Positions 7,301 to 64,000 of a stretch of 64,000 bases of DNA are shown here, one piece after another. The stretch's first letter is position 1. Each line of letters starts with the position of its first letter. This stretch comes from Antedon mediterranea (Eukaryota; Echinodermata; Crinoidea; Comatulida; Antedonidae): NCBI RefSeq assembly GCF_964355755.1, contig NC_092676.1, positions 28,874,288-28,938,287 on the forward strand. The letters run 5' to 3'. The notes under the pieces are model-generated. The model made no database searches and was not told the DNA's origin. It saw only the letters and a list, made by a program, of their open reading frames with translations. Position numbers and translations under genes: made by a program.

Positions 7301-10300
7301 GTAGTAATATATTAATATTCAGTTTTTATTTCTCAGTAGGCTCAAGAAAGGGCAGCAAAAATTCTAACGAAAGCAGGAACTCTAACGACTCATGGTCAGG
7401 TAATTACGTCACAAACCAATTTACGATCCTAAATAATCAAAATATCGAAAAAAAAATGTCTTTGTTTCAAATTAACTATTAATGTCATCATCGGTAACAT
7501 CAAGGCAGTCATTAGATTGCTTTTTAATTTATTCATTACAATATTTAAAATATATATATTAATAATACATTAATGATAAATTACAATTGCAAAAGCTTGT
7601 AATACGACTTTGTTTATGTAGAGTATCTTGTGTATAATATGTTTATCTTGTGAAAAGAATTGCCACCTTTAAGAAGAATAGTGAATTCAATTATGGTTAT
7701 CCTGGGCAATTGGCCTAAATATACAATAAAAAAGTAATTGAAAAACAAATTGTTACCTTTTTTATTTGTTTCTTTTAATACAACAGATGCCCTAACTTTG
7801 GACATGAACCCACGTCGAGTTCGCCTCAAGGGTCAAATGCAGTATATAGAGGAATGGGATTCCATGATTTTTCTATGTACACCTGTGTAAGTATTATAAT
7901 ATAGTTTCATTTTGAAAATAATAACGTAATTTTCATCCGACCTAAGTCTATGTTCTAGCCGGCGACGATTCAACTTAAAATTGGTTTAAAAAAACATACA
8001 CTTTGACGTTTCATAAGTAGGCCTATAGTACTTAAACTAAAGAAAAATCGAAACGCTAAATGGAAAACTAACAACATAAACAAAGACAATAACTTAATAC
8101 TTGGGTTACATACGAATCATCTAATTGCAAGGGCTCATGATAATTTTATAGAAATACTCACTATTATTAATATTTTACCATTTTGTATGGAAGAAAATAT
8201 GAGATACGATTTAATGTTTTATTCTGTCCTTGTCCTTGAAATTGTTTTAATGCTAATTTTCCTCTCATCATTTCAATCTTACCTAACTACTGTACATTAC
8301 ACTATAAATAATCAACTTAGACGAAATAAGTCGTTGGCATTGACAATATTATAAATTAAAGATATTTGAACAGATAGTTAATACCATACTAAGATTAATA
8401 AAGCCAATCTAAATCAACGGGAAGGTTACACACAATAGTATTTCATTATGGCTCCGTTTTTATACGTATGCGTTCAAATGGTGATACATAATAGTACAGT
8501 TTAATTACAAGCGCGCGTCAACTTTGTGTTGGAGGTAAAAACTTTTTTTAACATTTCTTTTTTTAGAATGGAAAATATAGATACAATGGCTGCCGCAGGA
8601 TTGTATGTGAACGACTTTAGTATGCACGATTCGAGTCGTGATCTCATTCTAGCTGGAACCCAGCAATCTACAGAGTTAAAGATGGCACTCGACCAGGTAT
8701 GCCATGTATTTGTTGTTGAATGATGAAATGAATCAAAGCCTGGTACGTAAGACCTTATGAGCGCCCTCATAAATTTAATTTTCTCGCCTCGTTGTACTGC
8801 AAAATACTGGTTTTGTGGCGTTCCATACAACCCCGGTATCGTAAGTTCTTTTTAATAGGCGAATGTATATTTAAATCATGTTAATTGTTTACTTTAGGAA
8901 CAACGTAAGAGTGCGCAATTAGAAGAAAGTATGAGAAAATTAGATGTCGAAGTTAAGAAAACAGATTCTTTGTTATATCAGATGATACCAAAACCTGTGG
9001 CGGAAAAACTTCGAAAGGGAGACTCAGCTACCAGTACGTGCGAGGTAAGAGGACTAAGGATTGTATTTTCCCAAATTTTGTCAAGACTGATATACGACAA
9101 ATGACAGGTAACACTTCCAGATGGATTGCGCGCGCGTGTATGATTACTCATCCAAAACCATATAAGCCTTTAAACGTGCATTTTTACGTTGATCGTCTTA
9201 ATTTTTACTTTGTATTTTAAAGGTATTTCCGTGTGTGACAATTTTATTCAGTGACGTTGTAGGCTTTACGACAATCTGTTCACGTATTACACCTATGGAG
9301 GTGGTAGCCATGTTGAACAGCATGTACACAAAGTTTGATAACCTATGTGAAGAATACGAAGTATATAAGGTAAGATGATTACGTCACCAAACATTACCAT
9401 GAAACTAAAAATTGCTTACATTTTTTTACTTGAAAACATTTAGATACAACGCAACGACGCAGGCGCAACACAAGTATTTTGACCAATCACAACGCCACTT
9501 TTCGAATGATTCATCGCGTCGTGATTGTGAAAAACAAGCGTTATAGCTCTGTTTACACTATCAAACTGTATGTGATGGACATGATATGTCATACCACATT
9601 CAAATTCGTAAATGAAGTTAATATAAATGTTCACTTTTACAAAAACATTAATGTTAGTCCTTTATTTAATTATTTACTTTCTTATTGAATTATTGTTAGA
9701 TCAAAATTTATGCATTTTGACTAATATATTTGTTGTGACAGGATTTCGTTTAGCGAAAGCTACTTTGAGGCTCCTATTTCACATGGTACGCTTTGTATGA
9801 TTTGAATAAAGTTGAAAGATTATGAAAGATTATATTTGGGTATATCACTACCATATTTGGGCAAATCATACTTTTTTGTCAAACTAGTTTGATAGTGTAG
9901 ACAGAGCTTAAGGATTTTATCAAAAGAGCAAAAATAGGGTTTTAAAATGTAAACACACGGCGCTAAACTAGCCATTTTTCTAACGCTGCTTAATAATATC
10001 ACATAATCAAAAACACTTTATACTTTATTGCGATTAATCCAACACGACGACGGTAATATAAAGTATTAAAGATAAAATAATTAAATAACTACTTGCGAGT
10101 GGAATTAATATTATCAAACGCCCAGTTGATTAACAGTTGAGAGTAAATGCAAACAGTCTTCTAATGTTTACATAACGAAATTTCATGCAATTACTCTTTT
10201 ATATTTAATCTAAAATATTGAGTATTTTTTTATTATATTTTCACAAGCGTTAGTTTGCAATCACCAAATTGAGCGTGTCAATAAATAATCTTATTAATTC

Positions 10301-55939: not shown

Positions 55940-58900
55940 TCAAATACGTTGTAACGTAACTTTTGCACTCAACAAACACCACTCAACCGTTAGAAGAACC
56001 GTTGAAATATAACCGAGTACCTGGAAAAAATAAAACAATGTTACAAGGCCTAGAATGTTAGAAAACACATAATAAAAACCCGTTGTTTAGGCGGAATTGC
56101 AGGATGCTATAAAAACCAGATTGAGAAACTTGTGGAGCGATTTCTAGGTTTAAATTATTAGAGAACGCATTGTAAGACTCTACTCACACAGGCGGCAGTC
56201 TGCTGGTATTGTAAACCCAATGCTTTATTTAAATCATTATTTTCCTTTATTTTGGACGCTAGTAAACATGAACCAACCAAAACTAGGATAGCAATCTGAA
56301 TACAAAAAGCAAGCTCCTGTAACGACAAACAAGTAGGCCTATTTTAATGTTCCTGTTCGTAATCTTCGTAGTAAACCCTTTCTTCATGTTAAATTTTCTC
56401 GTGTCAATGTTTGTAAAAATGGTATTTTCTGTAGACTCTCGTCATTGTACAATTCTTGTCTTTTAAAAAATAATTCTTTAGATATTTTTAACTGTAATTT
56501 TTCTCAATTTAAATGTATTATTAATGAAATTATTTAAATTTTCTTTTTCATTTGTATATATTTATATTGGCTCATATTTTATTGTTTAGTTTTTATTTTC
56601 AACCTGTTATTGGTGTTTTACACTGTTGGTTTGATATAAAGAATAAATAAAATAAATATTTGTTATTATTATTATTTCATAAAATTTTTAATTTAATCAA
56701 ATAATATAAATTTAATAATTTTGAAATGCGTCAAGTTACATACTATGATAGGACTTATCCAGTCTGGCTTGATAAGGTGAACAACCACAACAACCAGTCT
56801 CAGCATTGCTACAGTGATTGCAATCACGGTATATAAATAACACTTCCAAAAAAAACGATAATGGCAAAAATAGGCGTCGACATTTTCAATACATTCGACT
56901 ATTATATCAAGCAAAAGACCGAATCCAATGATCAGTAAAATCTGTAAAGAAGAGGCATTTCGTCATTAGTATTTTACCACACATAATAAAGGGTCTTTCA
57001 CACAGCTGTGCCAGCACGATTCCGGTGGTACGGCGAATCGAGCGCCAAAGTTTTGTTCTCTCGACGCTCCACGCGGCTATGCGCCAATCGATATGCGCCC
57101 GTAGCCGCACGTAAACACGAAACATTGACGTTCGATTGGATTTGCCGGCGCCGGACCGAAACCGTGCCGGAACAGTTGTGAAAGACCCTTAAGTTCGGTC
57201 TACACTATCAAAGTTTATGTGACAAAAAAAGTGTGATGTATTATATTCATTCTTTTTAAATGGCCTCTGTGCGTTTTGTTACTTTCCTTTATAGTAGCTG
57301 TTCTAGATTCAAGATTCTTTATGTTCATAGACTGAAAATTAGACTTTCCCTTGGCAATAGACCTATATTATAAAATTTAAACATCAAAACCCAACATTTC
57401 AAAACACAAGACAAGTTTAGTTTCGTTTTAAATTATTATAAAATAATACAATATAGATGACTATTTCATGGTTAAGAAGCATGAATCTTGTCCCCTGAAA
57501 ACAATAATTATTTTAAATGTTTTTGTTGAATATGCTATTTTAATGTCACATAATAGTAATTATCCACTTTGATCCAAAAATTGGATCGAAAAAATGTTTA
57601 TTTACCTGAAAAAACTGTAATTTAAAGCAAAAATAGTCAAATTGGCTGCCAGCCAATGGATTTTTGGTTGAATGTAACCATATTTTATTTTGTCCTTTTA
57701 CAAGTGAAATATTTTTTTTTCTACAGAAGTGATTAACTTCATTAAAACTACAAAATAACCTATTTAAAGTCTGTTTAATCTTCATTTTTCCTGTTTTTTT
57801 GGGGACAATACCATCTTTCAAGTCAAATCAAAACTGAAACAATCTGAAACAATTTATTATTATTATTTTATTATATAAACATCGGAAAATTCTACCCGTT
57901 GATACTGAATATTAAAATTTGTTATTATATTATAAAAATTCGTTTGATATTCAGTCAATGAAATTTTAATGCAAATAATAAAAAGAAATTAAGTTTTAAA
58001 GACTTTTTATTTTAACCAATGTTAGTAGGCCTATGTGAAGCACCGTTGATTAAGAGATTTTCATAGAAATGGGCTCTATTATAAAGCGTGGTTCCTTCAG
58101 AGACGCAACGTAACGCAACCTACGCAGCGTAAGAAAATGCCTTTCCGATAAATTGTGTTTTCCCCCACCTGCGTGAAATCAAATCTACGATGTTTACAGC
58201 ACTGATACTTCGTCGGTTCCCACTTGTGAATACGCAATACAGCACTTTGCGTCAAAACGTCGCTGCGTTGGGTCACTAGTGGGAACCACGCTTTAATGTT
58301 AATTCTTGTATGCATAATGCATGTGTAATTTCAGCATTCCATTTATTTTTCGTTGTATAAGAATCATATTGGCTGTAAAGCATGGTTCCCACTAGAACGC
58401 AACGCAGCGACGTATCGACGCAAAGTGCTGTATTGCGTAAAGCGTGGTTCCCACTAGAACGTAACGCAGCGACGTATCGACGCAAAGTGCTGTATTGCGT
58501 AAAGCGTGGTTCCCACTAGAACGTAACGCAGCGATTTATCGACGCAAAGTGCTGTATTGCGTAATCACAAGTGGGAACCGACGACGCAACAGTGCTGCAA
58601 ACATCGTAGGTTTGATTTCACGCAGGCGGGGGCAAACACAATGAGTGGAAGGGAATTTTCTTACGTTGCGTAGATTGCGTTACGTTGCGTCGCTAGTGAG
58701 AACCAAGCTTTAATATCGCAGGTTTGATTTCACGCAGGCGAGGGCAAACACAATGATTGGAAGGGCATTTACGTTGCGTAGATTGCGTTACATTGCGTCG
58801 CTAGTGGGAACCAAGCTTTAGTGTAATTTTCTTCCAAAATTCATTTTTCAAATAGAGGCTTGATGTAATATGAACAAATTGTAAGACTGGATGATTATAT

Positions 58901-58962
58901 TTACTCACGGCTTCAATGATCTTGAGTATACCATTCGGCGTTGCTAAATATTTATACTCCAT
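55940..58962 (-). CDS. MARVEL-domain protein, gene A, 4 exons
   Basis: Predicted 153 residues. Exons in coding order: 58962-58909, 56941-56744, 56316-56188 and 56020-55940 (stop TGA), all phase 0. The start MEYKYLATPN, then GILKIIEA, parallels MGCECAYACS-NGILKFFEIA of the plus-strand gene. Helix 1 is about 11-33 (ILLIIGFGLLLDIIV), helix 2 about 54-78 (YTVIAITVAMLRLVVVVVHL), helix 3 about 85-105 (ELAFCIQIAILVLVG), and helix 4 about 128-146 (VLGYISTVLLTVEWCL). Four helices with matching intron positions mark it as MARVEL family. The initiating exon carries 11 nt of 5' UTR behind a TTATTTCAG acceptor, so a non-coding first exon lies further up. Intron 1 contains the family 4 element at 56990-57191 and a family 1 fragment at 57190-57243. 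A tandem paralogue (gene B) lies upstream on the same strand. Confidence 0.87.
56990..57191. mobile_element. Family 4 inverted-repeat element, MARVEL A intron 1
   Basis: AAGGGTCTTTCACACAGCTG and TGCC at the left, and GGAACAGTTGTGAAAGACCC then TTAA at the right, are inverse with few mismatches. Same centre as the copy at 7094. Confidence 0.85.
58084..58296. mobile_element. Family 2 element, long subfamily, MARVEL A intron 1
   Basis: AAAGCGTGGTTCCTTCAGAG with CGCAACGTAACGCAACCTAC at the left, and GTCACTAGTGGGAACCACGC then TTTA at the right. The interior has the CACCTGCGTGAAATCAAATC block. Confidence 0.85.
58378..58821. mobile_element. Family 2 element with triplicated left end and duplicated right end
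   Basis: A 61-bp left-end unit (AAGCGTGGTTCCCACTAGAA, then CG(C/T)AACGCAGCG, then CGACGCAAAGTGCTGTATTG) is repeated three times at 58378-58560. The right end (CGCAGGCG, CAAACACAATGA-TGGAAGG, TTGCGTAGATTGCGTTAC, GTGAGAACCAAGC) occurs twice, to 58711 and 58821. It lies in MARVEL A intron 1, ending about 90 bp from exon 1. Confidence 0.85.
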
Positions 58963-60640: not shown

Positions 60641-60873
60641 TAAAGCGTGGTTCCCACTAGAACGCAACGCAGCGACGTATCGACGCAATTATTGGAAGGG
60701 CATTTTGTTACGTTGCGTCGGTTGCGTTACGTTGCGTCGCCAGTGGGAACCACGCTTAATAGTGTTTGCACTATTGCGTCGTCGGTTCCCACTTGTTATT
60801 ACGCCATACAGCACTTTGCGTCAATACGTCGTTGCGTTGCGTTACGTTGCGTTACGTTGGGAACCAAGCTTTA
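60641..60873. mobile_element. Family 2 inverted-repeat element
   Basis: AAAGCGTGGTTCCCACTAGA at the left and TTGGGAACCAAGCTTTAG at the right are inverse. An internal GCCAGTGGGAACCACGCTTA at about 60739 suggests two overlapping or nested copies. Confidence 0.8.
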
Positions 60874-61630: not shown

Positions 61631-61886
61631 AAGCTTGGTTCCCACTAGCGACGCAACGTAACGCAACATATGCAACGTAACAACATGCCCTTCCGATAAT
61701 TGTGTTTGCCCCGCCTGCGTGAAATCAAACCTGCTTGTTGCGCGTCAACGTTAGCATGCCATAGAGATGTTTGCAGCAATTGTTGCGTCGTCGGTTCCCA
61801 CTTGTGATTTCGCAATACAGCACTTTGCGTCGATACGTCGCTGCGTTGCGTTACGTTGTGTCGCTATTGGGAACCACGCTTAAATA
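61631..61886. mobile_element. Family 2 inverted-repeat element, complete
   Basis: AAAGCTTGGTTCCCACTAGC at the left, and TCGCTATTGGGAACCACGCT then TAAA at the right. The interior has CCGCCTGCGTGAAATCAAAC and CGTCGGTTCCCACTTGTGAT. Confidence 0.88.
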
Positions 61887-63205: not shown

Positions 63206-63280
63206 TTAAGCGGAAAGGGCTTTTATACCCAGCAAAATACACTCCACTAATAGAAGAACCACTGAACCAAAACCGAATAC
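63206..63280 (-). CDS. MARVEL-domain protein, gene B, last exon (gene runs off the window)
   Basis: The exon reads VFGFGSVVLLLVECILLGIK and ends ALSA-stop (TAA at 63208-63206), behind acceptor TTTATTCATTAG. It aligns with the fourth helix and last exon of gene A (VLGYISTVLLTVEWCLLSAK) with the same phase and nearly the same length. Flanking DNA beyond the stop is also shared. Earlier exons lie beyond base 64000; the end of exon 3 is represented by the repeat units at 63380-64000, each with GCCGCTTGT|GTGAGTAG, equivalent to gene A's GCCGCCTGT|GTGAGTAG. The intact helix and open frame suggest a working gene. Confidence 0.75.
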   Translation of the reverse strand, partial: VFGFGSVVLLLVECILLGIKALSA

Positions 63281-63379
63281 CTAATGAATAAAAATGAAAC
63301 AATGTTATAGATAGTTAGAAAACAGGCACAATTGCATGCTGTGGTGATACAAAGTGGTGTGTTAAATATACATGTTTGT

Positions 63380-64000
63380 AAATAATACACTACTCACGTC
63401 AAGCGGCAAATAATACACTACTCACACAAGCGGCAAATAATGCACTACTCACACAAGCGGCAAATAATACACTACTCACACAAGCGGCAAATAATACACT
63501 ACTCACACAAGCGGCAAATAATACACTACTCACACAAGCGGCAAATAATACACTACTCACACAAGCGGCAAATAATACACTACTCACACAAGCGGCAAAT
63601 AATACACTACTCACACAAGCGGCAAATAATACACTACTCACACAAGCGGCAAATAATACACTACTCACACAAGCGGCAAATAATACACTACTCACACAAG
63701 CGGCAAATAATACACTACTCACACAAGCGGCAAATAATACACTACTCACACAAGCGGCAAATAATACACTACTCACACAAGCGGCAAATAATACACTACT
63801 CACACAAGCGGCAAATAATACACTACTCACACAAGCGGCAAATAATACACTACTCACACAAGCGGCAAATAATACACTACTCACACAAGCGGCAAATAAT
63901 ACACTACTCACACAAGCGGCAAATAATACACTACTCACACAAGCGGCAAATAATACACTACTCACACAAGCGGCAAATAATACACTACTCACACAAGCGG
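63380..64000. repeat. 27-bp minisatellite, about 23 copies, runs off the window
   Basis: The unit is AAATAATACACTACTCACAC plus AAGCGGC on the plus strand. Copies are almost identical. The lowest copy is 28 nt (CACGTCAAGCGG), and one near 63435 has GCACTACTC. On the minus strand every unit contains an exon-end/donor sequence GCCGCTTGT|GTGAGTAGT. Because 27 is divisible by three, the minus frame stays open as a 9-residue repeat, closed by TGA in the odd copy. It lies between the last exon of MARVEL gene B and its missing third exon. Confidence 0.95.

Follow-up and report, generated by a model that had tools for sequence, protein, structure and literature searches.

A minisatellite spanning the exon 3/intron 3 boundary multiplies a candidate 5' splice site in a MARVEL gene of Antedon mediterranea

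A MARVEL gene at the edge of the window (the whole 64-kb stretch of DNA analysed, C7:28874288-28938287), here called gene B, carries 24 tandem candidate GTGAGT donors facing one acceptor in its third intron. As judged from its paralogues, the array is an expansion of gene B's own exon 3/intron 3 boundary that took place after gene B had split from the neighbouring gene C. We consider it probable, at roughly 70%, that this is an array of the 'mirage' type known from lancelets, grown from the gene B boundary, and that the first donor would be used in most transcripts, with the array being spliced out.

Structure and origin of the gene B array

Within the window, TRF reported a period of 27, 23.0 copies and 99% matches for the array; addition of the next 8 kb (from C7:28938288, numbered onwards as extended coordinates) gave its full extent, with 23 units of 27 bp followed at the end by one variant unit of 28 bp (Table 1). 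The first-pass annotation, which had counted about 23 repeats, was therefore right about the array, while the full set of candidate donors comes to 24. Its proposal to look beyond base 64000 was followed, and exon 3 of gene B was found there, running straight into the array rather than lying elsewhere. Each unit consists of the last 9 nt of exon 3 and the first 18 nt of intron 3 (a slash marks the splice junction throughout). The 9 exonic bases of the first unit are themselves the end of exon 3, so that the exon adjoins the array without a gap (minus strand, ...GAGCAGATTGCCGCTTGT followed by GTGAGTAGTGTATTATTTGCCGCTTGTGTGAGT...) and its end, ...CAGATTGCCGCTTGT/GTGAGT, leads directly into the repeats. 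Twenty-two of the 23 27-bp units share the same sequence and the other differs at one base; the terminal unit contains an in-frame TGA and then donor 24 (GAC/GTGAGT). Both divergent units lie on the acceptor side, at the edge of the array or close to it, which would be expected if the inner units had been homogenised or were the newest. The donors had been placed about 100 bp from a single acceptor: there is indeed one acceptor, at 117 nt from the last donor and 739 nt from the first. When up to three mismatches were allowed, no further copy of the unit was found elsewhere in the 354-Mb, 18-contig assembly, and the reversed control likewise gave 0; the chance expectation of the 17-mer within the window was 0.00, and the G+C content of the DNA retrieved was 34%. 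No match to mitochondrial COX1 was found in the assembly.

The four exons of gene B are intact, have canonical splice sites throughout and encode 151 aa, with intron 3 in phase 0. The product contains four hydrophobic segments and matches MARVEL (PF01284) end to end (E 7.2e-14, 52.4 bits against a curated cut-off of 32.8), which places it in that family.

Table 1. Positions of the gene B array, its paralogues and other exon-abutting donor arrays
Feature	Position	Strand	Details
Gene B exons 1-4	66782-66729, 64612-64418, 64151-64020, 63280-63206 (extended coordinates)		
27-bp minisatellite of gene B	63380..64000, on to extended coordinate 64028	-	unit GCCGCTTGT/GTGAGTAGTGTATTATTT
Unit 22, sole other divergent unit	63435..63461	-	one T->C, intronic part
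Terminal unit	63380..63407	-	28 bp, TGT -> TGAC, GCCGCTTGACGTGAGTAGTGTATTATTT
Unique 3' part of gene B intron 3	63281..63379	-	single acceptor TTTATTCATTAG/GTATTC
Exon 4 (last) of gene B	63206..63280	-	VFGFGSVVLLLVECILLGIKALSA-stop, transmembrane helix 4
Paralogue A	55940..58962	-	exons 58962-58909, 56941-56744, 56316-56188, 56020-55940
Paralogue C	71242-68165 (extended coordinates)		first exon further on
DHX8 exon end and donor array (L056)	C1:17776.2k-17777.1k		unit 37 bp, 21 donors
TDP2 exon end and donor array (L057)	C1:41208.0k-41208.9k		unit 31 bp, 28.9 copies, 27 donors
TUBGCP2 array (L066)	C8:18846.3k-18846.7k	-	18-bp unit starting at donor, 13 donors
HUWE1 exon end and donor x3 (L071)	C9:24970.9k	-	30-bp unit, in frame
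Predicted coiled-coil exon (L062)	C3:18139.9k-18140.3k	-	DVRQQQEKVRKEMKQRCELEESLKNAAEDAQTQ, 99 nt, then 23 donors, 17-bp frame-shifting unit
Probable 5'-UTR exon (L063)	C7:29503.5k-29504.1k	-	donor repeated ~16x, 37-bp unit

In paralogue A, exon 3 is followed by just one donor, GCCTGT/GTGAGTAGAG, with no array; the exon ends at 56188 on the minus strand, in GCCGCCTGT/GTGAGTAGAG as first annotated. Intron 3 likewise begins only once with GTRAGT in A, C and the other members with a readable exon 3 end, mostly preceded by a conserved Cys codon; the contig of the window also carries more distant exons of the MARVEL family, near 28.95 Mb and at 10.03-10.05 Mb. Since A and C have one donor each, the array arose in gene B. 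The single-copy boundary of C, GACCGCCTGT/GTGAGTAGACGTGTATTTATTTACAAAC, matches the composite of B's first unit and the sequence past its last unit, TTGCCGCTTGT/GTGAGTAGTGTATTATTTACAAAC, and the sequence 3' of the array (TATTATTTACAAAC) matches the single-copy intron start of C (TTTATTTACAAAC). These matches show that the array expanded from the boundary of gene B itself once B and C had separated (dS about 0.10), and the origin proposed in the first-pass annotation is borne out by the adjoining exon and the single copies in A and C. A 27-bp segment of gene B was thus tandemly duplicated after the split from its neighbour, and slippage or unequal exchange may then have carried the duplicated segment to 24 copies.

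The surrounding DNA holds a fast-evolving cluster of MARVEL genes (window 55940-58962, C7:28.930-28.959 Mb and 10.03-10.05 Mb). Another 27-bp minisatellite (ATTGCTAATCCTAAATGAAATAGGCCT) lies at positions 7680-8000 of the 8 kb beyond the window, between exons 1 and 2 of paralogue C and away from exon boundaries. MITE-like dispersed elements with terminal inverted repeats AAGCGTGGTTCCCACTAG occur at 58375-58820, 60645-60870 and 61635-61885, and also in the 8 kb beyond the window.

Known boundary-spanning repeats

Tandem repeats spanning exon-intron boundaries have been described in lancelets as 'mirages', in Adh3 and the globins BflGb6 and BflGb9 (Ebner 2010, PMC3087553, which cites Canestro 2002), and further cases are TnC and PGBD5 (PMC3902484). 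The Adh3 and globin data suggest that regular splicing is undisturbed, with length and somatic instability (PMC3087553), and the published mirages come without aberrant mRNAs (PMC3087553, PMC3902484). The gene B array shares their main features: its unit carries both exon and intron sequence and adjoins an authentic exon, it duplicates splice signals (24 GTGAGT donors), and at 27 bp the unit falls inside the 10-160 bp of published cases (PMC3087553; 10-72 bp in lancelet Adh3). In both systems edge units escape homogenisation and several genes per genome are hit. Gene B differs in having 24 near-identical donors, and in being known here from genome sequence alone.

The human IFI6 gene offers a second comparison, with an exon-end minisatellite, tandem donors before one acceptor and a small hydrophobic protein. 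The IFI6 minisatellite supplies several donors, and two of its downstream repeat units serve as donors in mRNAs (PMC4526556, citing Turri 1995); in gene B the last donor comes after an in-frame stop. The two genes and their sequences are unrelated and the arrays of independent origin. Human segmentally duplicated genes also contain internal tandem repeats at exon-intron boundaries (PMC2812944). There, as in gene B, a boundary minisatellite has expanded in a recent paralogue, with an average unit of ~30 bp in the human set; however, the human repeats average 4 copies against 24 in gene B and are linked to novel introns within exons, whereas in gene B an existing donor has been multiplied. Given these mirages, IFI6 and the human boundary minisatellites, the gene B array is of a kind already described, and the idea that it might be unprecedented fails against two direct precedents, the mirage minisatellites and IFI6. 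It adds to a phenomenon described from individual lancelet genes and from human IFI6.

Donor arrays elsewhere in the assembly

A genome scan for three tandem AGGTRAGT motifs returned 457 rows, compared with 292 for the reversed control. Four sub-patterns listed in full resolved into 15 distinct arrays, and the flanks of all 15 were read. Matches to the AGGTRAGTA sub-pattern were covered in part, and the scan addressed donors preceded by AG, a set that leaves out gene B's own; the count of exon-abutting arrays is thus a lower bound. At least four AGGTRAGT arrays adjoin exons proved by homology (DHX8, TDP2, TUBGCP2 and HUWE1), and two more, at C3:18139.9k and C7:29503.5k, probably abut exons as well. 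No exon ending at the array edge was found for the AGGTRAGT units at L055, L058-L061, L064, L065, L068-L070, L072 and L073.

DHX8 (Prp22 in yeast) is an essential splicing helicase. When joined at donor 1, its exon gives a translation that matches human DHX8 in an ungapped alignment (E 1e-55), and the TDP2 exon aligns in the same way to solved TDP2 (E 5e-16). In both genes the frame is open from donor 1 only, with later donors shifting the frame or passing a stop, and small indels occur inside both arrays. No second copy of DHX8 was found in the assembly, where other matches were at most 58% identical. Because this essential gene is single-copy and open from donor 1 alone, its exon-adjacent donor must be used often enough for viability in the face of 20 downstream copies; DHX8 and TDP2 together indicate that donor 1 can win against at least 20 downstream rivals. 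The TUBGCP2 exon matches GCP2 (E 1e-20) and its array is in frame throughout; HUWE1, joined at donor 1 (E 2e-32), has three donors and represents such an array early in its growth. Ordered by size, from 3 donors in HUWE1 up to 27, the arrays can be viewed as snapshots of the expansion. For the 99-nt coiled-coil-like exon at C3:18139.9k no family match was found; at C7:29503.5k a TATA-like box stands upstream of the exon, and the next exon starts a signal-peptide protein. A 34-bp array with AGGTGAGT recurs on C3 (L067, 20.09, 20.60, 20.74 and 21.38 Mb), each instance possibly ending a Ser/Thr-rich repeated exon.

Minisatellites (period 10-60, at least 3 copies) cover 3% of the window, and the genome contains 18742 AGGTRAGT sites (27810 for the reverse of the motif); a good number of the AGGTRAGT sites should be genuine donors. 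By chance, some arrays should therefore fall on donors, and a mutational mechanism specific to donors is not needed. It seems improbable to us that the genome is unusually prone to 5' splice-site multiplication, perhaps by a process linked to transcription or to the binding of U1, and that many of its genes carry donor arrays of 3 to ~27 copies under an enforced first-donor rule.

Donor choice in gene B

The first 23 donors of gene B are in frame, each unit reading VSSVLFAAC, and donor 24 sits behind the in-frame TGA. Splicing could accordingly add 0-22 repeats (0-198 aa) before helix 4, and a protein joining the whole array to exon 4 is impossible because the TGA precedes donor 24. The first-pass annotation had expected the 27-nt step to preserve the frame, which is correct for donors 1-23, but had missed this stop; it was right that the added 9-residue repeat is hydrophobic (mean Kyte-Doolittle 2.17) and would enter the MARVEL protein just before helix 4. 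Donors 1-23 all have the same predicted U1 pairing (-7.1 kcal/mol), and that of donor 24 is similar (-7.4), so sequence cannot tell the donors apart and position alone does. In this respect, a row of identical 5' splice sites is a natural experiment in donor choice with position as the sole variable, and in gene B (24 donors, 23 in frame) the donor used would be readable from cDNA length alone. We also considered RNA folding as a cause of silent later donors. Five array units fold at z -5 against ordinary shuffles, but P is 0.10 when the reference consists of tandem repeats built from shuffled units. Every donor, including the first, is predicted to be mostly paired (unpaired 0.05 and 0.01); folding thus fails to discriminate between them and was rejected.

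If transcribed, the gene B pre-mRNA would present 24 tandem 5' splice sites to one acceptor. Exon definition and co-transcriptional commitment of U1 would be expected to select the first, exon-adjacent donor in most transcripts, removing the other 23 inside a 739-nt intron, and occasional use of the next donors would place in-frame VSSVLFAAC blocks before helix 4. As only donor 1 is open in DHX8 and TDP2, we infer by analogy that the exon-adjacent donor would normally be chosen in gene B and that the array would leave with the intron. The first-pass annotation had allowed either a variable number of added repeats or constant use of the first donor with removal of the array, and the second outcome is favoured, by analogy, by the DHX8 and TDP2 arrays and the published lancelet cDNA. 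With 21 and 27 donors and donor 1 alone open, these two arrays suggest that an exon-adjacent donor can beat more than 20 downstream copies. The analogy is imperfect, since U1 pairing is weaker in gene B (-7.1 kcal/mol) than in DHX8 (-12.4) or TDP2 (-11.5), and the first-donor rule accordingly extends to gene B as an inference.

Two points stand against use of the first donor: the frame leaves donors 2-23 permissible, and human IFI6 does use two downstream repeat donors, yielding three mRNAs (PMC4526556). Were gene B to behave like IFI6, with donor 1 and several downstream donors appreciably used, it would produce a graded series of proteins carrying 0, 1, 2... copies of VSSVLFAAC ahead of helix 4. 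The open coding frame across donors 1-23 would permit this, and the units of gene B (27), TUBGCP2 (18) and HUWE1 (30) are all multiples of 3. However, 3 of the 6 coding exon-abutting arrays, including that of the predicted coiled-coil exon, have periods of 37, 31 and 17, which are not, so the frame is not generally protected; for the same reason a frame constraint was rejected as proof of function. Splicing is moreover normal in lancelet mirages, and a strongly hydrophobic block would land directly before a membrane helix. We regard appreciable use of several donors as unlikely, though by no means far-fetched.

It is also quite improbable, in our view, that gene B is a decaying duplicate in which the array has no consequence. 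By simple count, dN/dS is 0.93 for B-C and 1.44 for A-B with open frames kept, and values near 1 in the MARVEL cluster cast some doubt on the strength of constraint on gene B; its exon 4 is also shorter than that of C. Against decay, the reading frame, splice sites and all exons are intact, and the MARVEL match is well over the curated cut-off. The 108 A-B substitutions, if random, would be expected to create ~3.6 stops (P of none, 0.019), while the same test on the B-C pair alone is without power (P 0.23).

Preferential use of acceptor-proximal donors, which would yield mature mRNAs retaining the bulk of the array or ending at the TGA ahead of donor 24, has a parallel in reporter work, where equal strong donors show proximal preference. 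Such a rule would ruin the DHX8 and TDP2 products of the same genome and burden gene B with ~200 hydrophobic residues or a truncated protein, and we consider it very improbable. An assembly artefact is conceivable with near-perfect tandem copies but scarcely credible here, given that ~650 bp with unique flanks lies well within one long read, that ordered edge variants are present (unit 22 and the terminal unit), and that the same assembly contains other arrays with distinct units.
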